Assembly: GCA_944358305.1 (NCBI GenBank)
Contig: CALVQK010000010.1
Span: 1 to 57,916 of the forward strand
DNA from: an uncultured Bacilli bacterium
Lineage (GTDB): Bacteria > Bacillota_I > Bacilli_A > RF39 > UBA660
DNA length: 57,916 bases
Reading direction: 5' to 3'
Shown: in pieces, positions 1,485 to 52,232 of the stretch
Layout of the letters: each line of letters opens with the position of its first letter
Numbering within the stretch: the first letter of the stretch is position 1
Made by a program: the position numbers and the translations under genes
The notes under the pieces: model-generated
The model's database searches: none
Seen by the model: the letters and a program-made list of their open reading frames with translations, nothing else
What the model was told of the DNA's origin: nothing

Positions 1485-3554
1485 CTAATTCTCTTCAGAT
1501 ACAGCTTTACTAGCTTCTTCTTCACTATTAGGATTGAATAAGTCAAAGACAATCGCTTTATTAGATACATCTAATAACCTTTCAGCATACTGATTATTTT
1601 CACTAATATAGTTTTCATCAATTATTTCATCTTTTAGAAGTTTATATTCGCCTTTTTGACTATTATAATACATTAAGTTTGTTACCCAGTTACCATTTGG
1701 AAAGACAACAATATTATCATCTTTAGTTTGGAAAATATCATGTCCTAGGGCATATTTATTATAAAATCCTAACATATTACCAATAGTAGGCATTACATCA
1801 TACATACCCATAGTATAATTAACTTCGCCTTTAACAGCACCATCTTTAGTCCAGATTATAAGTGGAACTTTACGGTCTAATTCATAATCAAAACTATCAT
1901 AATCTATATAAGTTGGATCTTCTTCATCTTTTATATCATCAGTTACAGGATCATAATTATACATTAAATTAAATTCACTTCTAGGAAGTCTTGCATCATG
2001 ATCTCCAAAAATTATAACAACAGTATTTTCTAAAAGGCCAGCTTCGTCCATTTGATTAAAGAATTCTCCTAAAGCTTCATCGGCATAATGAACTGATTTA
2101 AAGTAATTACCTAATTTAGTTCCTTCTAGATATGGAGCTTCAATCTCTTCTGTAGTACCATCTTCATTTGTGATAGTTGTTTTCATGGTAACTGAGAATT
2201 CTCCATATTTATCGGTATCAGAAAATGGTGTATGGTTTGTTAATGTTATTATATAACCATAATATTTATCATGTTCTTCACTTATTTTCTTTAACTTCTC
2301 TACAGATTGAGCAAAGAATGATTTATCTGATAGACCTAGACCAATTACATCTTCATCATTCACTTCATAAGTTTCTTTACTGTAGAATTTATCATAACCT
2401 AATGAATCATGCATAGCACGTCTATTCCAAAAGTCAGCATTATTAGCATGCATACTGAATGTGTAATAACCTTTTTCTTTCATAAGGGATGGAGTTGAAA
2501 TATAAGTTCTATCAAAGTAACTTACAAAAGCAGTACCATTTTGAGTTGGCATTAAACTAGTATTATATGTAAGTTCAGTATCACTACTTGTTCCAACACT
2601 TACTTGAGAGTAAAAATTATTAAAGTACATTCCTTCATTAATTAATCTATTTAAGTTTGGTGTTACTTCTTCGCCATTGAATGTTCTATTTATAGCAATA
2701 CCTTGAAGACTTTCGGCATGTATTACAATAACATTACGGCCTTCTAAAACATTGGTATACTCATTAGTATAATCTTGTTCATCAGATCTACCTTCATAAT
2801 ATTCATTAAATTCTTTTTTAGCATCATCATAGCCAAACATAGCAGAAATCTGAGGTCCTATACTAGCAACGATATCATTACCTTGATATAAATAAATACC
2901 AAAACGCATAACTATATATTCCCTATTCCATTGTTTAACAAATCTACTTATTTCAAGACTTGATAAAGATAAGACAAAGAGAAGAAGTATTACAGCACCT
3001 GTTATAATGGTATTTTTAAACTTTTTAATTCTAGTTTCCTTGACATAAATTTTATATTTATCTTTCTTAACAAGGCGATGATGATAATATATGAAAAAAA
3101 TAAGGGGAAAGATATAAACTAAATCTTTAATTTGTAAGACATTTTCTACAACTGCATCTCCTACTTCGCCAATATATTGGGTAAGTGATAACATAGATAC
3201 ACTAGCAAATGAGGTGTAGAAAGTATAATATGCAGAGTTAATTGTACAAATAGCTGTAAAGATAATAGCCCATATTAATAGATATGTATATCTTCCTCTT
3301 CCTTTAAATAGATAAGAAAAGGAACCTATTATCGTAACTATGGCAAGGTCCGCTACAATAGGTTTAATAGATAGATAGTTTTCCATTGTAGGCATAGTAA
3401 AAATTCTAAGTAATGTAGAATTAAGAACGCATACTAAAACATAGACAAGAAAAAGCCTGTTATCTTTAAAATAACTGCTTATTAGTTTGTCTTTTTTTAT
3501 TTTTTTTAGTTTTGCTATAATTTTATCTTTAAATTTGATTAATTTTTTCTTCAT
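1485..3554 (-). CDS. LTA synthase (LtaS)-family sulfatase-fold membrane enzyme
   Basis: The protein (689 residues) has an N-terminal block of about five transmembrane segments (residues 30-205) and a large extracytoplasmic sulfatase-fold domain. Family landmarks are NVIVIHAESLQG near residue 275, GTSSDTELTYNTSLMP with the presumed nucleophilic Thr, HANNADFWNRR, and the metal-binding IIFGDHDARLP near residue 515. Known members polymerise glycerol-phosphate from phosphatidylglycerol onto a lipid anchor. Length fits LtaS. The exact polymer made here cannot be told from sequence. It leads an apparent operon with the 854-1471 gene. Confidence 0.88.
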   Translation of the reverse strand: MKKKLIKFKDKIIAKLKKIKKDKLISSYFKDNRLFLVYVLVCVLNSTLLRIFTMPTMENYLSIKPIVADLAIVTIIGSFSYLFKGRGRYTYLLIWAIIFTAICTINSAYYTFYTSFASVSMLSLTQYIGEVGDAVVENVLQIKDLVYIFPLIFFIYYHHRLVKKDKYKIYVKETRIKKFKNTIITGAVILLLFVLSLSSLEISRFVKQWNREYIVMRFGIYLYQGNDIVASIGPQISAMFGYDDAKKEFNEYYEGRSDEQDYTNEYTNVLEGRNVIVIHAESLQGIAINRTFNGEEVTPNLNRLINEGMYFNNFYSQVSVGTSSDTELTYNTSLMPTQNGTAFVSYFDRTYISTPSLMKEKGYYTFSMHANNADFWNRRAMHDSLGYDKFYSKETYEVNDEDVIGLGLSDKSFFAQSVEKLKKISEEHDKYYGYIITLTNHTPFSDTDKYGEFSVTMKTTITNEDGTTEEIEAPYLEGTKLGNYFKSVHYADEALGEFFNQMDEAGLLENTVVIIFGDHDARLPRSEFNLMYNYDPVTDDIKDEEDPTYIDYDSFDYELDRKVPLIIWTKDGAVKGEVNYTMGMYDVMPTIGNMLGFYNKYALGHDIFQTKDDNIVVFPNGNWVTNLMYYNSQKGEYKLLKDEIIDENYISENNQYAERLLDVSNKAIVFDLFNPNSEEEASKAVSEEN

Positions 3555-3588
3555 AATTACCTCACTTCCTAGACATTATAGCATTTTA

Positions 3589-4167
3589 TTATCTATTTTT
3601 CAATTTTTCATGTCTAATATAACAAAAATGATAGATTACTTTATATATTATTAAAATTATAAAGATAATTTGGCTTACTAAGACTATGACAAACATATTA
3701 TCATGTTGATAGATATTAGCAGTGTCTATTAGACTTAAATTCATTGAAATAGCAAGAGAAATAAAGTTTGTAAATAGATAAAGATGAATAATAGTTAGTG
3801 TATAAGTAATTATTTTATTTAATTTAACTAAGTTTTTCTTAAGCATAGTATATATTAATATAACTAATGAGATGATAGCTGTTAATATATAAAAGATAAT
3901 ATTTGGAAAATAGAAGCATCTCATAACAGTTCTTACTATCTCACTTAAAACATTTATTATATCCTCTTGGAAATAGAAAACTAATAATGAAAAGAAAAAT
4001 ATTATTAAAGCTATCAAAGCTATTTTTACTTTTTTATTTTGTCTTTTTTCATTATAAAGCAAAAAAATATAGAGAATAATAAAGATTAAAAGTATTTCAA
4101 TCGTTAAAAAAGACTGAAATGGTAGTGTTATAAATGTTAGTAATTGCTCTATTAAACTTAAATCCAT
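3589..4167 (-). CDS. polytopic membrane protein of unknown function
   Basis: This 192-residue protein is very hydrophobic, with about five predicted transmembrane helices separated by short basic loops (KRQNKKVK, KKNLVKLNK). No recognisable domain. It lies between the sortase gene and the LtaS-like gene on the same strand, so it belongs to the cell-envelope cluster, but nothing in the sequence gives it a specific job. The start is an ATG preceded by an AAGGAGAAT-type ribosome site. Confidence 0.7.
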   Translation of the reverse strand: MDLSLIEQLLTFITLPFQSFLTIEILLIFIILYIFLLYNEKRQNKKVKIALIALIIFFFSLLVFYFQEDIINVLSEIVRTVMRCFYFPNIIFYILTAIISLVILIYTMLKKNLVKLNKIITYTLTIIHLYLFTNFISLAISMNLSLIDTANIYQHDNMFVIVLVSQIIFIILIIYKVIYHFCYIRHEKLKNR

Positions 4168-4187
4168 ATTTATTCTCCTTTTTATTC

Positions 4188-4841
4188 TTAAATTTCTTCA
4201 AATATGTAGATTGTTTGATTATAATCATCATTATGGGTACAAGTAATTAAAGTTAATGTTTTCTTTGTAGGATCGCGATAAATTGCTACTGTTCCGGTTT
4301 TAGCTTGATTATATATATTTGTTAAGCGATAGTTATAGGTATTAGCATTATAACTAACACTAGCTTCATCTCCTATTTCTAATCTATATAGTTTATCAAA
4401 GAAAGAAATATAGGCATTTCCTGAATGAGCCATTAAGATAAAGTTTCCCATAGGAACATCAGGATAGTCTGCTTCATTAGCAATAGTTACATTATATTCT
4501 ATATTATTATATCTTGACTCTTTAGAAACAAAACCTCTTCTTAAATTTATCTTAGGTATTGATAGCTCTCCTATATATGAATAATTAGCTTTTTTATCAT
4601 TTTCTTCTGCCTCTTGATTATTCTCTACTGTTACTTCTAGATTTTCTGTATTTACATTATTAATAGTTGTGTTATTATTTTCATTAATATTAAGTTGAAA
4701 GATAGCTAGTCTCATTTCTTCAAAGACTTCATCTTTCAATATTCTTAAGGGAGTACTAAGAAAAACTAATATTCCTACTATAAGGAAGAAAAAGCCAACT
4801 TTAGAGAGTTGGCTTTTTATGTTTCTACTTTTTCTTTGCAT
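4188..4841 (-). CDS. sortase (class D/E-like), catalytic Arg not evident
   Basis: The enzyme should cleave a sorting signal and anchor surface proteins. It has one N-terminal transmembrane segment and a linker rich in Asn and Glu, then the sortase barrel. The catalytic His is in LMAHSGNAY and the Cys in TLTLITCTHND. The conserved Arg expected near the C-terminus, on the strand after the Cys, is not present: the aligned stretch reads DYNQTIYIFEEI, with Gln where Arg is expected. I prefer the ATG at 4841, since the longer frame begins with TTG at 4862. Either start overlaps the end of the thioester-protein gene, its likely substrate. A perfect terminator-like hairpin lies within its first codons. 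Confidence 0.82.
   Translation of the reverse strand: MQRKSRNIKSQLSKVGFFFLIVGILVFLSTPLRILKDEVFEEMRLAIFQLNINENNNTTINNVNTENLEVTVENNQEAEENDKKANYSYIGELSIPKINLRRGFVSKESRYNNIEYNVTIANEADYPDVPMGNFILMAHSGNAYISFFDKLYRLEIGDEASVSYNANTYNYRLTNIYNQAKTGTVAIYRDPTKKTLTLITCTHNDDYNQTIYIFEEI
4789..4818 (-). terminator. intrinsic terminator embedded in the sortase 5' coding region
   Basis: The inverted repeat is perfect over 12 bp (4789-4800 with 4807-4818) with a 6-nt loop. The minus-strand read-out is a stem ending GGCTTTTTC. It begins 7 nt after the stop of the thioester-protein gene and lies within sortase codons for roughly K-S-Q-L-S-K-V-G-F. It would end most transcripts after the substrate gene unless translation or another factor melts it. 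Confidence 0.7.
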
Positions 4842-6204
4842 TTTTTGGTCTTTTAGCCACAACTATTAAGACAATACCTGCTATTACAATTAGAGTTCCA
4901 ATTCCATAAACTAAGAATGAAGTACTACTTGTATCTGGTGTTGGAATTGTTGGAGCTTCTAAGTCAAAAGTTAAAGGTGTTGTAGGTCTTTCGATAAGTC
5001 CTAGTAAAGCTCTTTGTAGTTCTGTATGAACTAAACATACTCGTTCACCTTCAGCATTTTCTCCAACTGTATTTCCTGAACCAGTACAATCATCTTCTGT
5101 ATAGTCTTCTGTAAATCCCACTTGAACTTCATGGTATGTAGGATTTGGATTATAAATAAAGGCATCATATAGATCTGCAAAATATCCTACGATTGTAATA
5201 TTAACTTTAAAGTTTTCGTTTTGGACATCTTCAATTGGAACACGTAGTTTAAATCCTTGGTTAGCACTTATAGAATTGCTAGCTATAGGATTATCATTTT
5301 CGTCAACGATTTCTACATTACCAACTGAACTATTAATTTGAACTGTATAGCTTTCAAAACTTGAGTTACTACTAATTGGTCTAATTAAACTTGTTTCGAC
5401 ATAATCATTTGTTATTGTATATGTAACACTATTTGTATCTACTATTACATCTTGATTTCCATTATTAACTAGATAAGCATTTTCATTAGCAACAGCACCT
5501 TCTACTAAATTTACAACAATCTGTCCATAAGTGCTATCGGCTCTAATAGCTTGCTTATCAGCTGCTGATAAGTTATTGTAGAATTGATAATTTCCACCAT
5601 CATCAAATTTATTTTCTTCTGAGGTTGTGGCACTACTTAAATCATATGTAGTGTAATTTTGAGTATCACTAAAACCATTAGCTCTATCGATATACCACCA
5701 AACAGCAAGTTGTGTTAAATAGTAGTTGATAGAACTATCACTAGTTGGTTCGTCATTTTGAAGAATATAAATTAATCCTGGATAATCACTTGTTCTATTA
5801 TCACTGCTACCAGTTAAAGTAGTTTGATCTTTTACAGAACTACCTTTCACATAGTTATGATTTCCTATCATTCCTAATCTTCTATCCATACAGTAAATAA
5901 AACTTAGTCTTTCACCAGATGAAGTTTGTCCATAAAACTCATTTGGTAAATAAATATCAGATATTAAAGTTCTACCACTAGTAGACATTCCTGAAGTAAA
6001 GCTGTCAGGTAATTGTTGTAAAAAGCCTGCCGCATAACTTTCTTTAGGATTAATAAAAATACTTATCACTAATAATATAGCAACTAAACAACATGAGATA
6101 ATACCTATTTTTTTAACATCATTCATAGCTTTATCCATTTTGTCTATATTTCTTTTAGTTTTACTCCTTTTAATTTGTGCTTTTTGATTCATCTTTGAGC
6201 TCAT
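4825..6204 (-). CDS. thioester-domain surface adhesin with C-terminal sorting signal
   Basis: This is a 459-residue secreted, wall-anchored protein. It has an N-terminal signal peptide (hydrophobic segment about 33-52, likely cleavage near SYAAG), then a Cys-Gln thioester domain with Cys105 in FIYCMDRR and the TQLA motif at 164-167. In known members, Cys and Gln form an internal thioester that bonds covalently to host amines. A predicted beta-sandwich region follows. The C-terminus has a Pro/Thr linker with the sorting-like IPTPDTSS (420-427), a membrane segment (about 430-450) and a basic tail, which is the expected layout for a sortase substrate. The motif departs from LPXTG. The sortase gene overlaps it directly downstream. 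Confidence 0.86.
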   Translation of the reverse strand: MSSKMNQKAQIKRSKTKRNIDKMDKAMNDVKKIGIISCCLVAILLVISIFINPKESYAAGFLQQLPDSFTSGMSTSGRTLISDIYLPNEFYGQTSSGERLSFIYCMDRRLGMIGNHNYVKGSSVKDQTTLTGSSDNRTSDYPGLIYILQNDEPTSDSSINYYLTQLAVWWYIDRANGFSDTQNYTTYDLSSATTSEENKFDDGGNYQFYNNLSAADKQAIRADSTYGQIVVNLVEGAVANENAYLVNNGNQDVIVDTNSVTYTITNDYVETSLIRPISSNSSFESYTVQINSSVGNVEIVDENDNPIASNSISANQGFKLRVPIEDVQNENFKVNITIVGYFADLYDAFIYNPNPTYHEVQVGFTEDYTEDDCTGSGNTVGENAEGERVCLVHTELQRALLGLIERPTTPLTFDLEAPTIPTPDTSSTSFLVYGIGTLIVIAGIVLIVVAKRPKNAKKK

Positions 6205-30717: not shown

Positions 30718-31713
30718 TTGAAAAAAACAATTATTTATATCGTTGTTATTCTAGTTATTTTTGCTTTAGCTTGTGCTGTATTATTTAACTTTAATAAGAA
30801 AGATGATAAAGATGAAAAGAGTCTTGAAACAGTAAGACTTGCAGAAGTTGCTCATACTATTTTCTATGCACCAATGTATGTAGCGATTGAGGAAGGATAT
30901 TTTGAAGATGTTGGCATTGATATTGAACTTACTCTTGCTAGTGGTGCTGATAAGGTAAGTGCAGCGGTATTATCTGGAGATGCTGATGTTGGTTTTGCAG
31001 GAAGTGAAGCGACTATTTATGTGTATAATGGTGGTGAAAAAGATTATCTTAAAACTTTTGCTCAATTAACACAGAAAGATGGATCGTTTATAGTAGCACG
31101 TGAAGATATTGAAGATTTTACACTTGATGATTTAGTTGGTAAGACCATAATTGGTGGTAGAGCTGGAGGAATGCCTGAGATGACACTTGAATGGGCCTTA
31201 ACTGATGCAGGAATAGATCCTAAAGAAGATGTTAATATTGATACATCTGTAGCTTTTTCAGCGATGAGTAGTGCTTTTATTGGTGGAACAGGAGACTTTG
31301 TAGCTTTATTTGAACCTAATGCTTTACAACTTGAACAAGAAGGTTATGGTTATGTTGTAGCAAGTTTAGGAGAAATTGGTGGAGTTGTTCCTTATACAGC
31401 TTTCTTTGCTAGAGATAGTTATTTAAATGAAAATAAAGAACTTATCGCCAACTTTGAAAAGGCAATTCAAAAAGGACTTGACTTTGTACATAATAAATCT
31501 GATAAAGAAGTGGCCGAAGCAATAATAGATCAATTCCCTGATACATCACTTGATGATTTAACTAGTGTTGTAGAAAGATATAGATCTATTGATGCTTGGC
31601 CAGATACAACTGAATTTACTGAAGAGTCATTTGACCACTTACAAGATATAATGATTAACGCTAATGAGCTTGATAGTAAAGTTCCATTTAGTGACTTGAT
31701 GTATGAAGAATAA
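30718..31713 (+). CDS. ABC transporter substrate-binding protein, NitT/TauT (NMT1/SsuA-like)
   Basis: The protein (331 residues) should capture a small organic or inorganic substrate outside the cell. The TTG start follows AAAGGAGGATTTTAG. A hydrophobic N-terminus (about 3-23) ends in FALAC, a non-canonical lipobox, so it is either a lipoprotein or signal-anchored. The type 2 periplasmic fold shows FYAPMYVAIEEGYFEDVGID, GDADVGFAGSEATIYVY and an FVALFEPNALQLEQEG block. Substrate cannot be inferred. The stop overlaps the ATPase start by 11 bp. The transporter is crippled because the ATPase gene is split. Confidence 0.88.
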   Translation: MKKTIIYIVVILVIFALACAVLFNFNKKDDKDEKSLETVRLAEVAHTIFYAPMYVAIEEGYFEDVGIDIELTLASGADKVSAAVLSGDADVGFAGSEATIYVYNGGEKDYLKTFAQLTQKDGSFIVAREDIEDFTLDDLVGKTIIGGRAGGMPEMTLEWALTDAGIDPKEDVNIDTSVAFSAMSSAFIGGTGDFVALFEPNALQLEQEGYGYVVASLGEIGGVVPYTAFFARDSYLNENKELIANFEKAIQKGLDFVHNKSDKEVAEAIIDQFPDTSLDDLTSVVERYRSIDAWPDTTEFTEESFDHLQDIMINANELDSKVPFSDLMYEE

Positions 31714-32128
31714 TATTTTAGAAATTACACATTTATCTAAAAATTATCAAGATAAAACAGGAGAAATAGAGGCAATTAGGGATGTTAACTTAGAAGTTAG
31801 TGAAGGAAAATTCATTGTTATTGTAGGACCAAGTGGCTGTGGTAAAAGTACTCTTTTATCGATACTTGCTAATTTAGATAATAAATCTAGTGGAAAAATT
31901 AGTTTTTCTAAAGATAATATAAAGGTAGGTTATATGCTTCAAAAGGATAGTTTGTTTCCTTGGCTTAGCATTTTAGATAATTGCCTTTTAGGTCTTAAGT
32001 TAAAAGGTAAAATTAAGAAAGATGATAAAGAGTATGTCTTAAAATTACTTGATACTTATGGTTTAAGTGAATTTAAAGACAAATTTCCTAATAGTCTATC
32101 TGGTGGTATGAGACAAAGAGTTGGTTGA
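31703..32128 (+). pseudogene. 5' fragment of ABC ATPase gene, cut by the element
   Basis: This is the first part of a SsuB/TauB-type ATPase. It keeps Walker A (GPSGCGKST, residues 42-50), the Q-loop (YMLQKDSLFPWL) and the signature LSGGMRQRV (132-140), then reads one Gly and a TGA supplied by the element. Walker B, the D-loop and the H-loop lie on the other side, at 41236-41571. Joined at the GT dinucleotide (32120-32121 to 41238), the two pieces give 753 nt, a perfect 250-residue ATPase. As it stands it cannot hydrolyse ATP. Confidence 0.92.
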
Positions 32129-38508: not shown

Positions 38509-38628
38509 ATGTGTTCTTATAATGTTTTATGTGAATATGATAAATCTATTAGTGATGATGAGTTAAAGATAATAATTAATGATAAATTATATAAAATTAT
38601 TACTACTCTTGAGATGAGTTTAGAATGA
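38509..38628 (+). CDS. 39-residue protein upstream of the integrase
   Basis: The product begins MCSYNVLCEYDKSISDDELK and ends LYKIITTLEMSLE. It is acidic and helical. GAGGAGTGATTTTTT precedes the ATG. Its TGA overlaps the integrase ATG (ATGA), so the two are translationally coupled. A size and position like this would suit a recombination directionality factor, but I recognise no family and the role is a guess. Confidence 0.65.
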   Translation: MCSYNVLCEYDKSISDDELKIIINDKLYKIITTLEMSLE

Positions 38629-40184
38629 AAGAAATTTTTAGAGTAGCGATTTATTTAAGGCTTTCTATTGAAGATAAAGATAAATTAAATAAATTAGAGT
38701 CAAGTGAATCTATTAAAAATCAAAGACATATGTTAATGGAGGTTATTAATAATAATCCTAATTATAATTTAGCCTGCGAATACTGTGATGAAGATTTATC
38801 TGGTGCCGGTACATATAGACCAGAGTTTGAAAGATTAATTAGTGACTGTGAAAATGGGAAGATCGACATTGTTTTGTGTAAGAGTCAGTCTAGGTTTTCG
38901 AGGGATATGGAGATTGTAGAGAGATATATTAATAATAAGTTTAAAGAGTGGAATGTTAGATTTATTAGTTTATCTGATAATGCTGATACAGAAAATCCTG
39001 GTAATAAGAAATCTAGGCAGATTAATGGGCTTGTTAATGAATGGTATTTAGAAGATGTTTCTAATAATATTAGAAGTGCTTTTAATTCGAAGATGAAACA
39101 AGGTGAGTTTATCTCCCCTTTTGCACCTTTTGGCTATTTAGTAGATAGTAATGATAATAATAAATTAGTTGTTGATAAAGTGGCAAGTTTAGTAGTTAAA
39201 GATATTTTTAATTTATATTTAAAGGGGTATGGCTACTCTGCTATTGCAAAACATTTAAATGATAAAAATATACCAAGTCCATCACTTCATAAATATAGAC
39301 AAGGTATTAAATTAAATGTTGTTAGTAATAAAAAAAGAGATGAAATTAAATGGAATAGTAATGCTATTAAGACAATACTTAAAAATGAAGTTTATTTAGG
39401 TAAGCTTGTTCAGGGTAAAAGGACTACTGTTAGTTATAAAAATCATAAGATCATTAATAAAGATAAAAGTTTATGGATAAGTTATCCAAACACCCATGAA
39501 GCGATTATTGATAAAGTTACTTTTGATAAAGTACAGTTGGAGATAAAAAATAGGACTAAGCCTAGAGGTAGTAGTACTGTTCATTTATTTTCTTCTAAAG
39601 TTTTTTGTTTATGTTGTGGTCATTATTTAAGAAAGAAAAACTCTTCAAAACATGAGTATTTAGTATGCTCTAATAATAGTATCTGCTCTAATAAGTCATC
39701 TATTAGATATGATAAATTAGAAAGTATTGTTCTTCTTGAGGTTAATAAACTATTAGATAAATTTTATGATGAAGAGGTATTAAAAGAAAAGTTAAATAAA
39801 AAATATAAAGAAATATATAAGGAGAAGTTAGAATCTTTAGAAAGTGAATTAGGTAATATTAATAGAAAAATAGATGAATCTAAAAACTATTTAAAAAACC
39901 TTTATAAAGATAAGGTAAATAATGTTATTTCTCTAGAGATGTTTAAGACTTTAGTAAGTAGTTATGGAGATAATAAGGATAGATATTCTAAACAATTAGA
40001 TGATGTTAATAAAAAGATTAGTATTTATAAAGAGAATATTAAAAGTTTTGATGAGAAAATAATTTCTAAATATAAAAAACTAGATAGTCTTAATAGAGTT
40101 ATTGTTAATGAGTTTATAGATAAGATTTATATTGGTGAAATTAGAGATAGTATTAGGGTTATAAAAGTAAAGTGGAATTTTTGA
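38625..40184 (+). CDS. large serine recombinase (integrase)
   Basis: The integrase (519 residues) has a resolvase domain with VAIYLRLSIEDKDK (catalytic Ser near 15), then DLSGAGTYRPEFERLISDCE, KSQSRFSRDMEI and the long helix with EWYLEDVSNNIRSAFNSKM. A recombinase domain follows (APFGYLVD; YLKGYGYSAIAKHLND), then a zinc ribbon (FCLCCGHYLRKK ... YLVCSNNSICSNKSS) and a C-terminal coiled coil (about 390-490). This architecture catalyses attP x attB integration without cofactors. The predicted crossover GT lies at 32120 and 41236. Confidence 0.95.
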   Translation: MKEIFRVAIYLRLSIEDKDKLNKLESSESIKNQRHMLMEVINNNPNYNLACEYCDEDLSGAGTYRPEFERLISDCENGKIDIVLCKSQSRFSRDMEIVERYINNKFKEWNVRFISLSDNADTENPGNKKSRQINGLVNEWYLEDVSNNIRSAFNSKMKQGEFISPFAPFGYLVDSNDNNKLVVDKVASLVVKDIFNLYLKGYGYSAIAKHLNDKNIPSPSLHKYRQGIKLNVVSNKKRDEIKWNSNAIKTILKNEVYLGKLVQGKRTTVSYKNHKIINKDKSLWISYPNTHEAIIDKVTFDKVQLEIKNRTKPRGSSTVHLFSSKVFCLCCGHYLRKKNSSKHEYLVCSNNSICSNKSSIRYDKLESIVLLEVNKLLDKFYDEEVLKEKLNKKYKEIYKEKLESLESELGNINRKIDESKNYLKNLYKDKVNNVISLEMFKTLVSSYGDNKDRYSKQLDDVNKKISIYKENIKSFDEKIISKYKKLDSLNRVIVNEFIDKIYIGEIRDSIRVIKVKWNF

Positions 40185-40234
40185 AGAAAAAATTAGTCTA
40201 ACTGTATATTATATTAATAGAGATAGTAAAAAGG

Positions 40235-40260
40235 AAACGTGATAGATGTCACGTTTTTAT
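40235..40260 (+). terminator. terminator after the integrase
   Basis: AAACGTGA (40235-40242) pairs perfectly with TCACGTTT (40249-40256), followed by TTAT. Confidence 0.75.
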
Positions 40261-40361
40261 ATTATCTTATTTTTTACTTAGAATGTAAAATGTTAGGCAA
40301 CTTTGCAAGAACTCTCTCTAACTAAAAAAGGAATATTTTGAAAGAAAGGAAGTAATTATAT

Positions 40362-41222
40362 ATGAAGCAAGATAAAATGCATATTGTAAATAAGTTATTT
40401 AACAATGAAACAATTAGAACTGTTTGGGATAATGAAAAAGAAAAATACTATATTAGTGTAGTTGATATAGTTAGAGTTTTGACAGACAGTACTAATCCTA
40501 GACATTATTGGAACGTATTAAAAGGTAGGTTAAAAAATGAAGGAAATGAAACAGTCACAAATTGTGACCAGTTGAAATTAAAAGCTCAAGATGGTAAATA
40601 TCGTTTAACTGATGTTGTTGACATTGAGGGTATGTTTAGAATTATTGAATCAATACCTAGCAAAAATGCTGAACCTATAAAAAATTGGCTTGCTAAACTA
40701 GGTAGTGAAAGAATTGATGAAACTTTTAATCCTTCTCTTGCTGTTCAAAGGGCAATTGATACTTATAGAGCTAAAGGGTATGATGAAGATTGGATTATTA
40801 AAAGAATTAAAGGTATTCAAGATAGAAAGAAACTTACTGAAGTATGGAAAGATAATGGTGTTGACAGTAATTTAGAATATGCAATACTTACTAACGATAT
40901 CTATAGAGAATGGTCAGGTATGACTGCTAAAGAATATAAAGAGTTTAAAGGACTTAGAAAAGAATCTTTAAGAGATAATATGAGTGATATTGAAGTATTA
41001 CTTGCAGATATTGGTGAGATTACAACTCGTGAACTTGCTAAGAAGCATAAACCTTATGGATTAAATGAAAATAGAAAAATTGCTAAAGTAGGAGGTGAGG
41101 TTGCTAGTAATACAAGAAAAGATATAGAAGAGAAACTTGGGGAAAATGTTATTAGCAAAGACAATAATCTCAATTATCAATATATAGATGATAATAAGAA
41201 GCTAGATTGTACTGTGTCTTAA
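40362..41222 (+). CDS. BRO-N domain protein (DinD/antirepressor-like)
   Basis: The 286-residue protein starts with a BRO-N type domain (TIRTVWDNEKEKYYISVVDI, then RHYWNVLKGRLKNEG and LTDVVDIEGMFRIIESI, about 15-115) followed by the DinD-like part with KNWLAKLGSERIDE, AIDTYRAKGYDEDWI and EWSGMTAKEYKEFKGLRKES. Such proteins are typical of phages and integrative elements and bind DNA or act as regulators. The ribosome site AAAGGAAGTAAT is good. The TAA stop lies inside the attachment-site arm (41213-41235), so it is the last gene of the element. Confidence 0.82.
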   Translation: MKQDKMHIVNKLFNNETIRTVWDNEKEKYYISVVDIVRVLTDSTNPRHYWNVLKGRLKNEGNETVTNCDQLKLKAQDGKYRLTDVVDIEGMFRIIESIPSKNAEPIKNWLAKLGSERIDETFNPSLAVQRAIDTYRAKGYDEDWIIKRIKGIQDRKKLTEVWKDNGVDSNLEYAILTNDIYREWSGMTAKEYKEFKGLRKESLRDNMSDIEVLLADIGEITTRELAKKHKPYGLNENRKIAKVGGEVASNTRKDIEEKLGENVISKDNNLNYQYIDDNKKLDCTVS

Positions 41223-41260
41223 CAATATTCAAACAGTTGCTCTAATCAGGACACTTGCTA
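41213..41260. other. attR: right junction of the element
   Basis: The element arm 41213-41235 meets host ATPase sequence at GT (41236-41237). The host side continues TGCTCTAATCAGGACA, codons A-L-I-R-T of the ATPase. Confidence 0.85.
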
Positions 41261-41571
41261 CTAAACCAGATATATTACTTTTGGATGAGCCTTTTTCAGC
41301 ACTTGACGCTATGACTAGAGTAATACTTGCCGATGATGTATATAAAATGGTTAAAGAACTAGGCAAAACTGCTATTATGGTTACCCATGACATAGGAGAA
41401 GCGGTTAGTCTTGCAGATAAAATTGTTGTACTTACTAAAAGGCCTTGTGTTGTTAAAAATATTTATGATATTAATTATAAAAAACGTTCTACTCCATTTA
41501 ATAATAGAAAGGCTAGTGAATTTAATTATTATTATGAACTAATTTGGAGAGATTTAGATGTCAAACTTTAG
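41236..41571 (+). pseudogene. 3' fragment of ABC ATPase gene
   Basis: This is the second half of the split ATPase: ALIRTLATKPDILLLDEPFS (Walker B, D-loop), then TAIMVTHDIGEAVSLADKIV (H-loop) to the C-terminus. It has no ribosome site or start codon of its own; a TTG at 41281 is the only in-frame candidate. It matches the 31703-32128 fragment exactly in frame after excision of the element. The stop overlaps the permease start. Confidence 0.92.
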
Positions 41572-42655: not shown

Positions 42656-43453
42656 TTACATTGTTCTAATACGGTATTCTAAAACCTTACATTTATTATC
42701 AAGTGAAAATTTTCCTTCAAACAACTTATCTTTAAATAAGTATGGAGTGAATTTTTGATTTTGATCAAATTGCTTTATTTTTTCCAAATCTTCAAATTTT
42801 ATCCATTCTAATATTCCTTCTTCTGACGCTGATAATAAATCCCCCTTATAATCATCTGCGGTATATACAAATATAATTCCTTCTGCTGAGTCCTTCCAAT
42901 AAGATATACCTTGTAGTTTTGGATTAATCAATGTTAATCCTGTTTCTTCATAATATTCTCTAATAATACAATCTAACGGTGATTCTCCTTCTTCGAATTT
43001 TCCACCAGGAGGAGCATAGACTTGTCCATATTTTTTAGTGAATTTAATCATTAAAACTTTATTGTCTTTTTTTAAATAACAAGCAGTTGCATTTAAATGA
43101 GCAATACGATGCTTTTTAATGGAAAAAACTACACATCCATTTTGTTCAGATTCTTCTTTTGTATAATAATCCCCCTCATAAGTATCTCGTACTACATCCT
43201 CAATACTATCATATTTATCCTTAAAATCTTCATCATAGTATTTAGTATAACAATCATACCAATTATTAAATGTTTCAATCTTAGTTACATCAACAATATA
43301 TTCTTCATCTAAATTTGGAAGTTTTAAAAATTTAATAGTATCTCCAACTCTTACTAACTTTCTTTTTTCATCATTTATACGATATTCCCTCTTTTTCTTT
43401 CCAGATTTTAAATCTTCAAAATTAGATTCATATAGTTTCATTATATGTTCCAT
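42656..43453 (-). CDS. ASCH-NUDIX fusion protein
   Basis: The 265-residue protein joins two domains. Residues 5-117 look like an ASCH domain (MKLYESNFEDLKSGKKKREY, with VGDTIKFLKL and a C-terminal CVVFSIKKHRI strand), a PUA-like fold tied to RNA or modified-nucleoside handling. Residues 118-265 are a NUDIX domain with the full box (GGKFEEGESPLDCIIREYYE then ETGL), closest in pattern to MutT-like 8-oxo-dGTP pyrophosphatases. The ATG follows AGAGGTGTAATCA. It lies 12 bp after the YunG-UDG gene, so the two are probably co-transcribed. Confidence 0.82.
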   Translation of the reverse strand: MEHIMKLYESNFEDLKSGKKKREYRINDEKRKLVRVGDTIKFLKLPNLDEEYIVDVTKIETFNNWYDCYTKYYDEDFKDKYDSIEDVVRDTYEGDYYTKEESEQNGCVVFSIKKHRIAHLNATACYLKKDNKVLMIKFTKKYGQVYAPPGGKFEEGESPLDCIIREYYEETGLTLINPKLQGISYWKDSAEGIIFVYTADDYKGDLLSASEEGILEWIKFEDLEKIKQFDQNQKFTPYLFKDKLFEGKFSLDNKCKVLEYRIRTM

Positions 43454-43464
43454 TGATTACACCT

Positions 43465-44373
43465 CTATTTTAATATGGTTTTATCTTCTTTTAGTTTTTC
43501 AAATATTGGTAAATTACCTTTATAACTCTTAGGAGATATTGGACTTGTATGATATATTGGTAAAATTTTATGTCCATCAACTTCATATATTTTTCCTACT
43601 ACATCTTGAAATTTATTAAACTTAAAATTAAGTAAGTTTCTGGTTGGAAATTCTCCTAAAGTAATAATTAGCTTTGGATTCAACAATTCAAGTTGTTTTT
43701 GCATAATGTTTTTACAGTTTTTAGAACATATTTTTAAATTTTTTCGTTCTAAAGGATAGCATTTTACTGATTCTAAAAAGGTAGTTTCGAAAATATCTCT
43801 ATTTATAATATCAAAAAGTTTTTGTAAAATAACACCACTTGGTAAGATTTTTCCATTTACATCAGTCCATAATCTATGACTTTTTCTCCAACCATTATTT
43901 GCAGGAGCTTCTCCTATAAGTACAATATCATTATTTTTCCCTAAATAAACAGTTCTATCATTAGGGAACTTCTCTACTAACTCGTTACATAAACTACATT
44001 TATATACATCATAATCTATTAATAGTAAATCAAGTTTATTTTTTAATTTTTTATATCTTATTTTTGTGTTTTCATTATCTAATATATCACTTCTTGATAC
44101 TAGATTATAATTAATATAGTCAGGTCCATTTACACCAAATTGTTCTTTTGTTAAATCGATAATTTCATCATCTATAATATTAAAGTAATGACTAATTCCT
44201 TGTACATTACATTTTGCAATCTTTCCATCAAAGTAATCGTTTACAATCAAAGAGGTAATAGCACAATGACCTAATGTTTTATTTTCTTCAGTCCATTCGT
44301 CTTTTAACTTTGGATAACATGTCTCGCTTGAATAGCAGTCATATAGTAAATTATTAAGTTCCTTTAAAGTCAT
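43465..44373 (-). CDS. YunG-like / uracil-DNA glycosylase-like fusion
   Basis: The roughly 302-residue protein has an N-terminal YunG-type domain (TCYPKLKDEWTEENKTLGHC, then GISHYFNIIDDEIIDLTKEQ; Cys-His-Asp order as in papain-like folds) and a C-terminal uracil-DNA-glycosylase fold. The latter shows VLIGEAPANNGWRKSHRLW, SGVILQKLFDII, LESVKCYPLERK, four Cys that could hold a metal cluster, LIITLGEFPTRNLL and ILPIYHTSPISPKS. It probably removes damaged bases. I use ATG 44373; a GTG 9 bp upstream lacks a ribosome site. Unusual architecture. Confidence 0.8.
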   Translation of the reverse strand: MTLKELNNLLYDCYSSETCYPKLKDEWTEENKTLGHCAITSLIVNDYFDGKIAKCNVQGISHYFNIIDDEIIDLTKEQFGVNGPDYINYNLVSRSDILDNENTKIRYKKLKNKLDLLLIDYDVYKCSLCNELVEKFPNDRTVYLGKNNDIVLIGEAPANNGWRKSHRLWTDVNGKILPSGVILQKLFDIINRDIFETTFLESVKCYPLERKNLKICSKNCKNIMQKQLELLNPKLIITLGEFPTRNLLNFKFNKFQDVVGKIYEVDGHKILPIYHTSPISPKSYKGNLPIFEKLKEDKTILK

Positions 44374-44441: not shown

Positions 44442-44807
44442 TTACAAATATTCATCTAATTTATCTGTTTTATATAGTTTAATTTTAAATTTAAGCTTTT
44501 CTAAGGCATCTGTCATAGTTTTAATCTTTTCTTCAAGTTTTTCTTGTTCTTCTTCTAATAATTGCTGACGTTTTAGTTTAGTGTTTTCTCCTTCATCATA
44601 TAAATCAACATACTTTTTTAATACTTCTATAGAAATACCAGCACTACGCATACACTTAATAAACTCTATTCTTCTTAAATCTTCTTCACTATAGTCTCTT
44701 ATACCACTACTATTTTTCTTAATTGGTCCTATTAGTCCTACTTTTTCATAATACCTTAATGTATCATTAGTCATATTAAATTTTTCTGCTACTTCTTTTA
44801 TAGTCAT
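44442..44807 (-). CDS. MerR-family transcriptional regulator
   Basis: The product is 121 residues from MTIKEVAEKFNMTNDTLRYY, a typical MerR N-terminal winged helix (EKVGLIGPIKKN...IRDYSEEDLRRIEFIKCMR), followed by the dimerising coiled coil with many Glu and Lys. No effector Cys pattern, so it is not a metal sensor of the CueR type and fits the YyaN/AdhR-like stress group. The start at 44807 follows GGGAAGTAATAAA. The longer frame upstream covers the promoter and is wrong. Confidence 0.9.
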   Translation of the reverse strand: MTIKEVAEKFNMTNDTLRYYEKVGLIGPIKKNSSGIRDYSEEDLRRIEFIKCMRSAGISIEVLKKYVDLYDEGENTKLKRQQLLEEEQEKLEEKIKTMTDALEKLKFKIKLYKTDKLDEYL

Positions 44808-44831
44808 TTTATTACTTCCCTTCGTAGTTAT

Positions 44832-44860
44832 ATTATCACTTAGAGTATAGTCTAAGTCAA
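44832..44860 (-). promoter_or_regulatory. MerR promoter with operator dyad
   Basis: On the minus strand TTGACT (44855-44860) and GATAAT (44832-44837) are 17 bp apart. The dyad ACTTAGA (44838-44844) and TCTAAGT (44851-44857) fills the spacer, as in autoregulated MerR-type promoters. Confidence 0.75.
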
Positions 44861-44925
44861 TATTTATTTTTGACATAATAATATTGTTATTTCCATATAA
44901 TAATATTGATAATGAGGTGATTACT

Positions 44926-50321: not shown

Positions 50322-52232
50322 TTATCCATTATATAAAGTTTCTTTGAATAAATTCTCGCGAATTTTTTGTTTCATTTTTTGATAACGATTATTTAAAAAA
50401 TTAAAATATGCAGTTTTAAATTGTTCTTCATTTAAATTCTCATCTAACCAATCCAAATCACTTCTAATTGTGAAAGTATATTTTTCTTCTATTTCTTTTA
50501 TATTTTTAATTTTAGATAAATAATAATCATCATTATATATAGTTTTATCTTTTTTTACCCTGTTATCATACTCTGGAAGCAAGCATAAATTAGCAATTGA
50601 GCTTATTGGTAATCTAAACTCATTAGAGTATTTTAAAATTTTTTCTTTCATTAAATTTTTTGGTGCTAAATGTTCAATATCATATTTTGTTTCATCATTT
50701 TGATCAGTGGCACTAAATATAGAAGAGTATATTAAATTTAGAATTAATTTTTCTGGTTCTTTAGGTTGAGCAACCTGTTTTTGCTCATTTCTTTCATTAT
50801 TAATTGTATTATAATATACATCTAATACTTGTTCAAATTCTTCCCAACTTACATTTCGGTTGTAATAATAATTTTCTATAATAATATTATCTAGTTTCTT
50901 ATCTCCAGAACCTTTCCATTTTTGTCCTAATATATCCATCGCATATATTTTTAAAATATTTTTGTCAAACGTATCCTTCATATCTCTCCACTGTTTATTG
51001 AACATTGAGGTATCAATTACTAAATTTTTGACTTCACCTTTGTTATTCAACTCAAAACTTGCATGTCTATTAATAAATACAGTTGCAATTATTGACACAA
51101 TTTGTAGTTCTGTATGTAACGGATATATCTTAGAAGTAGAACGTTTATTACTCTTAAATTTTGTTCCAGCTCCAAGTCTTTTGTCCACATATTCTATTGC
51201 TTCAATTATTCTAGATAAAAATTCCTCTATTGAATGTGTTTCTAGTCCTATAATATTTTTCAAATTAATATTAAGCTTTCTCATATTAGCACTTCTTTGA
51301 ACTAAACAAGCGTTAATTAAATTAAATCCTATACTTTCAACTTTTGTTTTATCATTTTCATCATAAGTAAATAAATAAGGATATTTCTTACTAATCATTT
51401 TTCCAAAGCCAAATACAAGTTCAAAAATATTTACTTCTTTTTTCCTAGTAAGTTCTGTTGGATTATAATCTTCTAATTCCATATCTTCATCAAGCATATT
51501 TTCATATCTATCGCGATTATTATTAATTATTTCGTCAAATTTAGTATTTTCAAGTTTCACTAAATCTTGTGCCCATGTTGCAGCATATATTTGTTGTTTT
51601 GTAAGTTTAGCACCTTGTGAATTTATTCTCTCAAAAATTTCTGGTAATAAGCTTTCATCTCCCTCATAAATAAGTGCTGGGATTTGCATGTTGGAAATAT
51701 TGGCACATACATCTTGAAATTTACTAAATATTGATTTTATCAATTTTTTTATTTCATCTTTATTATCATTAGCTGTTGGCCATACTTTTATTATTTCATC
51801 TACCAAATCTCCATATTGCATTCTTTGAACATCTTGCATAGTATGATGTTCATTTACAATCCAAGCTTTAATTATATCTATAAGTTTACTTTTTATTTCA
51901 CTTCTACTACCAACAATATTAAAATAATCTATTATTTTATTAATTTTATCTTCATCTAAATTTTCATCATTAAAGAACCTAGCCGGATTTTTAATAAATT
52001 CAATTATAGTTTTACTTCTTTGTAAGCCATCAATAATTTGTCGCCTATTATCATTTTCATATAGCAAAATTGATCCAAAAGGAAAACCCTTGTTCATAGA
52101 ATCAATTAGTTTATCTTTTTGACTTTTTTGCCATACTGCTCCTCTTTGATATTTTGGAACTGTTATTTTATTATTCTTTATATCATTACTTAATTTTTCT
52201 ATAGAATATTCTGTCATTTTCCAATTACCCAT
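50322..52232 (-). CDS. DUF262 + DUF1524-like (GmrSD-type) restriction protein
   Basis: The 636-residue protein starts with a DUF262 domain (VPKYQRGAVWQKSQKDKLID, with IIDGLQRSKTIIEFI near residue 65), the ParB-like nucleotide-dependent part of GmrS. The middle is helical, and the last 170 residues carry a DUF1524-type HNH nuclease (YDIEHLAPKNLMKEKILKYS; SIANLCLLPEYDNRVKKDKT). GmrSD enzymes cut modified phage DNA. Here both halves are in one chain, and the His-Asn-like residues are present. It is a lone gene with no other restriction genes around. Confidence 0.85.
   Translation of the reverse strand: MGNWKMTEYSIEKLSNDIKNNKITVPKYQRGAVWQKSQKDKLIDSMNKGFPFGSILLYENDNRRQIIDGLQRSKTIIEFIKNPARFFNDENLDEDKINKIIDYFNIVGSRSEIKSKLIDIIKAWIVNEHHTMQDVQRMQYGDLVDEIIKVWPTANDNKDEIKKLIKSIFSKFQDVCANISNMQIPALIYEGDESLLPEIFERINSQGAKLTKQQIYAATWAQDLVKLENTKFDEIINNNRDRYENMLDEDMELEDYNPTELTRKKEVNIFELVFGFGKMISKKYPYLFTYDENDKTKVESIGFNLINACLVQRSANMRKLNINLKNIIGLETHSIEEFLSRIIEAIEYVDKRLGAGTKFKSNKRSTSKIYPLHTELQIVSIIATVFINRHASFELNNKGEVKNLVIDTSMFNKQWRDMKDTFDKNILKIYAMDILGQKWKGSGDKKLDNIIIENYYYNRNVSWEEFEQVLDVYYNTINNERNEQKQVAQPKEPEKLILNLIYSSIFSATDQNDETKYDIEHLAPKNLMKEKILKYSNEFRLPISSIANLCLLPEYDNRVKKDKTIYNDDYYLSKIKNIKEIEEKYTFTIRSDLDWLDENLNEEQFKTAYFNFLNNRYQKMKQKIRENLFKETLYNG

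Follow-up and report, generated by a model that had tools for sequence, protein, structure and literature searches.

The YunG-UDG gene, which fuses a YunG domain to a domain of the uracil glycosylase (UDG) superfamily, is on balance best read as encoding a Brig-type anti-phage DNA glycosylase for modified phage bases, probably of the cytosine type. We infer the defence function, the substrate and the role of YunG, and this reading is preferred because the base pocket is changed at the Brig1 positions, relatives are located in defence islands, the gene is patchily present, and the genome encodes a separate UNG. The UDG half would be a family-4-like Fe-S glycosylase with a rebuilt base pocket (Glu for Asn, Trp for Phe, and motif 1 GEAPANNGWRKS), which may flip a modified base out of phage DNA; a modified cytosine is the probable target, since a carboxylate suits the 4-amino edge of cytosine. 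Cutting of the N-glycosidic bond would create abasic sites by which phage replication would be stopped, and YunG would serve the glycosylase as a swappable accessory N-terminal module.

The window, i.e., the whole stretch of 57,916 bases that was analysed (contig C10 within a 1.36 Mb assembly of 26 contigs), contains two fusion genes on the minus strand, separated by 11 nt. The YunG-UDG gene (43465..44373) encodes 302 residues from an ATG, or 305 from an alternative GTG start 9 bases upstream, and comprises a YunG domain (44020..44373, minus strand, residues 1-118 with C37, H62, N65 and D73, model pLDDT 95.7) and a UDG-superfamily domain (43468..44019, minus strand, residues 119-302). Pfam matches these at residues 2-114 (PF24585, E 5.8e-30, 104.3 bits against a cut-off of 27) and 146-285 (PF03167, E 7e-13, above cut-off), respectively. 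The ASCH-NUDIX gene (42656..43453) encodes 265 residues, with an ASCH domain (43100..43453, minus strand, residues 1-118; PF04266 at residues 5-112, E 7e-5, 23.9 bits against a cut-off of 21.2) and a NUDIX domain (42659..43099, minus strand, residues 119-265; PF00293 at residues 122-237, E 1.2e-14). Both fusions had been recognised in an earlier sequence-only reading, and their coordinates and reading-frame bounds were borne out by Pfam, an ORF check and relatives. Co-transcription, also proposed there, is plausible because of the 11 nt gap and a Shine-Dalgarno-like AGAGGTG that overlaps the stop codon of the upstream gene of the pair. A gene for a MerR-family regulator (44442..44876, minus strand; NmlR-like, below cut-off) lies 68 nt upstream of YunG-UDG on the same strand and constitutes the conserved flank of a variable spot, the same flank being present in L085 and L108. 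The nearest neighbours in the window have non-defence functions, save a GmrSD_N (DUF262-type) protein 6 kb off (50322..52232, minus strand), which is type IV restriction-like, is the sole PF03235 match in the genome and is given as context only. Elsewhere in the window, a serine recombinase and a Bro-N gene (38625-41571) immediately precede a C-terminal fragment (96 aa) of an ABC ATPase, and an N-terminal ABC ATPase fragment (141 aa) is encoded at 31703-32128, so that a transporter operon may be split by an insertion.

The YunG-UDG structure model, built with 48 sequences (mean pLDDT 90.5), gives the UDG half a family-4 UDG fold (Foldseek to 4zbx, E 4.2e-10; VIA Z 18.2, 2.9 A over 180 residues), at 22-25% identity to the family-4 structures 4zbx, 1ui0 and 1vk2. 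Cys126, Cys129, Cys205 and Cys220 are invariant in all 48 sequences and match the Fe-S cysteines of 4zbx in the profile alignment, which makes them putative Fe-S ligands by homology. In this alignment, with positions taken from the printed numbering, the base-stacking F55 of the S. tokodaii UDG 4zbx aligns with W169 (codon 43867..43869, minus strand), and the uracil-reading N82 with E201 (codon 43771..43773, minus strand), which is also the place of Brig1 Glu147. Position 169 is Trp in 47/48 sequences (one Phe), position 201 is Glu in 47/48 (one Gly), position 275 is His in 47/48 (one Tyr), and motif 1 reads GEAPANNGWRKS in 48/48. Asn and Phe occupy the N82 and F55 places in all four solved family-4 sequences of the profile alignment, and L209, in which a canonical UDG is joined to a DNA polymerase, keeps both; Asn is likewise kept in the separate ordinary UNG of the window genome (GQDPYHG; LLLNAVLTV) and in a third UDG-superfamily protein encoded on its contig C17 (ITNLGKC). 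The Asn-to-Asp exchange N204D in human UNG, at a residue that we take to be equivalent to N82 of the S. tokodaii enzyme, reportedly confers cytosine excision. The L209 fusion (2238-6203, minus strand; G725, contig C156) is a 1321-aa protein in which the canonical family-4 UDG is joined to a region that by eye resembles C-family DNA polymerases, and its surroundings are phage-like.

The glycosylase domains of this family, of about 190 residues and 43-94% identical, are encountered in gut Bacilli and in two Clostridia MAGs. Whole or broken YunG-UDG genes are present in 13 of 291 genomes of the same family, the sample used for all co-occurrence counts, and scanning of genome contigs yielded 58 related loci, the named records being mostly gut Bacilli MAGs; broken copies are found in L107, L123 and L160. 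YunG-UDG was found neither in 50,697 phage records nor in IMG/VR, and a phage origin was rejected on that basis; IMG/VR has two loci with a YunG match, and the plasmids searched yielded only weak YunG or UDG parts.

From up to 36 loci, the proteins encoded no more than 3 genes from the fusion were taken, each cluster being represented once (123 proteins totalling 37,190 aa). They were compared with a control of equal number (123 proteins, 36,039 aa in all) from 20 arbitrary regions within the same family, and with an outer set (77 proteins, 18,175 aa) from genes of those loci at a distance of at least 5. The PADLOC figures count families at 1e-10 rather than proteins, and enrichment is expressed as families and best E-values. 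The near neighbours match 271 PADLOC families, including, among the matches listed, BrxL, type I R and M, PDC-S06, PDC-S01, PDC-S73 and DpdE, versus 41 families (best 3e-65) for the random-region control. The outer genes match 94 families, and here the matches listed include CBASS cyclase, E2, 2TM effector, BrxB, AbiE and DRT. The regions around the YunG-UDG relatives are defence islands, and closeness within them is unspecific to YunG-UDG; because genes at least 5 away are likewise rich in defence functions, the setting marks the region and not the gene. When 21 immediate neighbours, picked by size and not at random, were scanned singly, 8 looked defensive (hsdR, PrrC-like PDC-S06, nSTAND3-Mrr, Abi_2, HEC-05/SspE-like, PD-T4-6 kinase, PDC-M66A, and HNH with an ABC-3C-like part), Fic and RhuM were possible, and 11 were not defensive, the ordinary neighbours including TyrRS, a P-type ATPase and a chaperonin. 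In L127 an hsdR-hsdM pair is located directly downstream, and in L144 the UDG fusion is directly followed by genes belonging to the hsdR and hsdM clusters. A second, different UDG-superfamily protein (GQDWGP; PF03167, E 4.6e-13) is encoded a few genes from YunG-UDG in L110 (8698-9444, plus strand), and a protein resembling it in L140 (12127-12894, minus strand).

The YunG half is the more variable part, with a median identity to the window's copy, over 34 fusions, of 52% versus 79% for the UDG half, and the UDG half stands alone in 13 rows of the 48-sequence alignment. In L144 (3426-4973, plus strand) the UDG domain is instead fused behind a nuclease-like N-terminus of 280 residues, without Pfam match, in which a GPDIEV-YIECIA stretch resembles PD-(D/E)xK nucleases by eye. 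YunG, for its part, is fused to an Ada metal-binding domain in L098 (4987-5649, minus strand; by Pfam) and in L099 (5587-6216, plus strand; by similarity), and to an N-terminus that by eye is acetyltransferase-like in L195. The Cys-His-Asp order to which the sequence-only reading had drawn attention is present as C37, H62 and D73, of which H62 is found in 35/35 and D73 in 34/35 copies, but the cysteine is not invariant, being kept in 31/35 and lost in 4 (3 Ser, 1 Asp). The model shows a compact YunG fold with the Cys at a helix start and the His on a strand. Sequence searching retrieved no solved relative and Foldseek no match at 0.001, and the best VIA match, 2hly, reaches a Z of only 5.6 (3.8 A, 103 aligned). 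The VIA matches, weak at Z 2-5.6, are presumably for the most part papain-like or NAT enzymes. We regard YunG as an exchangeable accessory module that may be papain-like; its designation as a proven protease was set aside on the basis of these searches.

The ASCH-NUDIX gene is most likely an independent gene for a nucleotide hydrolase, which came to lie in the variable spot that also holds YunG-UDG. Its Nudix box is complete (42935-43003, minus strand; consensus GX5EX7REUXEEXGU at residues 151-173), and the NUDIX box and the C-terminal part align with the MutT-like NUDIX protein 3fk9 (E 4.9e-18). The DNA identity to the same-genus genome G054, per 60 nt, runs 65 73 56 64 50 66 and then 90 93 86 91 88 90 88, with the step at nt 360, the border of the ASCH and NUDIX domains; the ASCH half is exchanged as a block at this border in G054. 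YqfB-type ASCH proteins have a Thr nucleophile within a Lys/Thr/Glu triad, according to the passages of PMC9599836 that describe them, whereas in the octapeptide GKKKREYR of the ASCH half, in a register set by spacing only, Glu23 stands at the Thr place in 10/10 ASCH-bearing rows. Because of this apparent replacement of the nucleophile, ac4C deacylase activity is not expected of the ASCH half. A deoxynucleotidase gene of the NT5C type (PF06941, scanned in two loci and assigned in the others by membership of the same cluster) occurs within 4 genes of ASCH-NUDIX in 5/8 fetched loci, the window aside, and MazG, RelA/SpoT and PTPS genes also occur; a role in the nucleotide pool is the simplest reading. 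A literature search on the ASCH domain and Nudix, judged by its listing, revealed no paper on such a fusion.

The sequence-only reading had joined the two genes in one repair or nucleotide-surveillance pathway. In such a unit, the NUDIX part could rid the nucleotide pool of a modified nucleotide that the UDG part would remove from DNA. The 11 nt gap with its overlapping Shine-Dalgarno sequence would agree with this, as would the same pair in L107, the succession in L120 of YunG-UDG and a NUDIX-only gene (71%), and a NUDIX box within 3 genes of the UDG in 9/57 loci versus 0/235 random genes (p 0.004; L111 and L113 are near copies). That enrichment vanished when genes beside the UDG were compared with more distant genes of these loci (8/193 versus 7/295, p 0.20). 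Full ASCH-NUDIX genes, at 62-79% identity to the window's copy, occur in 9/291 genomes with the window counted, and only the window's own genome, 1/9, also has YunG-UDG (Fisher p 0.34); when NUDIX-only copies (at least 69%) are added the count becomes 3/14 (p 0.019), G259 having the two on different contigs. Each fusion recurs elsewhere, but the two adjoin each other only in L107, 1 of the 58 loci, and a NUDIX-only gene adjoins YunG-UDG once (L120). The supposition that the pair recurs in other genomes therefore survives narrowly, since in L107 (178-1896) both genes are broken, YunG-UDG by an early stop and ASCH by a frame break, unless these are assembly errors. In the close relatives L108 and L109, which are 91% identical, YunG-UDG is followed after 1 nt by a methyltransferase in place of ASCH-NUDIX, and L110 has this methyltransferase after YunG-UDG too. 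In G054 (L085), the variable spot, whose ABC permease and MerR-glycosidase flanks are the same, holds ASCH-NUDIX and other genes but no YunG-UDG. The two genes have thus come together by accretion at a variable spot, because co-occurrence of the two fusions is at chance level, a methyltransferase takes the place of ASCH-NUDIX in L108 and L109, and the G054 spot is without YunG-UDG. A conserved two-gene pathway was rejected, and we hold a single functional unit to be improbable.

A role of YunG-UDG in host repair of non-uracil damage, such as deaminated, alkylated or oxidised cytosine, with the islands reflecting hitch-hiking, appears unlikely, albeit worth weighing. The family-4 ancestry, the fusion of YunG to the DNA-alkylation module Ada (L098, PF02805 E 9e-7) and an altered pocket that could serve a lesion speak for it, but the presence in only 13/291 genomes, the broken copies and the defence-rich loci are unlike core repair. 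The repair role that had been suggested earlier is therefore considered less likely than defence, by the pocket residues, the island setting and the separate UNG. There is also a slim chance that the protein acts on uracil in the usual way despite its divergent pocket, as an ordinary glycosylase, or is a uracil binder that does not cut, in line with its PF03167 score above cut-off and with the ranking of UdgX structures next to family 4 for the UDG half in VIA. Against this stand the replacement of the uracil-reading Asn and the stacking Phe in 47/48 sequences, the separate UNG, and NCBIfam scores below the family-4 cut-offs (TIGR00758, 44 versus 125.3 bits; NF040953, 47.6 versus 250). Membership of UdgX was rejected on a model score of 12.8 versus 189.95 bits; UdgX bears a KRRIH/His loop, which seems absent between C205 and C220 of YunG-UDG.

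If the Brig-type defence reading is true, base-excision immunity extends to gut bacteria and their phages carry modified bases, an extension based on pocket changes at the same two positions as in Brig1, in islands with BREX, RM and CBASS genes; moreover, YunG, a domain of unknown function, gains a testable setting. With the family-4 enzymes (UDGa; 4zbx, 1ui0, 1vk2) YunG-UDG shares the fold, the four Cys, GEAP and the His at motif 2, but it has Glu for Asn, Trp for Phe and GEAPANNGWRKS for GEAPGENEDKEGRPF. A 2024 report, based on soil DNA, described base-excision immunity that depends on an enzyme of the UDG superfamily, and the papers retrieved for Brig1 deal with Brig1, Brig3 or T4, the phage that they target. 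Brig1 is, in the passages of PMC11078745 describing it, an anti-phage glycosylase that excises alpha-glucosyl-hmC, has the S. tokodaii family-4 UDG as its nearest solved relative, and is often accompanied by BREX genes, so that superfamily and location in defence islands are shared with YunG-UDG. Its authors equate Y121 and E147 with F55 and N82, and report that Y121A, E147A and E147Q alter immunity (PMC11078745); by this published residue assignment both enzymes have an aromatic residue (Tyr in Brig1, here Trp) and a Glu at these places. The same passages mention no YunG domain for Brig1, and whereas the substrate of Brig1 has been demonstrated, that of YunG-UDG is a prediction. A point against the Brig-type reading is that the phages on which Brig1 and Brig3 were shown to act have E. 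coli, not gut Bacilli, as their host.

Brig3, which acts on 5hmC and is called weakly homologous to UDGs by its authors, requires W100, D127, E55 and N50 according to the relevant sections of the preprint PMC13160076; as a UDG-superfamily glycosylase with an essential Trp and an acidic pocket residue, encoded in one operon with a hydrolase, it resembles YunG-UDG. It differs, in those sections, in being single-domain and in having as partner BapA, a glucosyl hydrolase and not an ASCH-NUDIX protein, and its motif 1 residues N50 and E55 (by description) correspond to A156 and G161 of YunG-UDG in our own register. A bolder proposal, which we regard as rather a long shot, is that gut Bacilli have a new branch of base-excising anti-phage enzymes that bear Fe-S clusters and are assembled as cassettes, a single conserved glycosylase domain being combined with exchangeable partners, in which YunG would be a cysteine amidase stripping amide-linked decorations from hypermodified bases before excision and the nuclease-like domain of L144 would cut at the abasic site. 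YunG would then serve its glycosylase as BapA serves Brig3 in the preprint's account.
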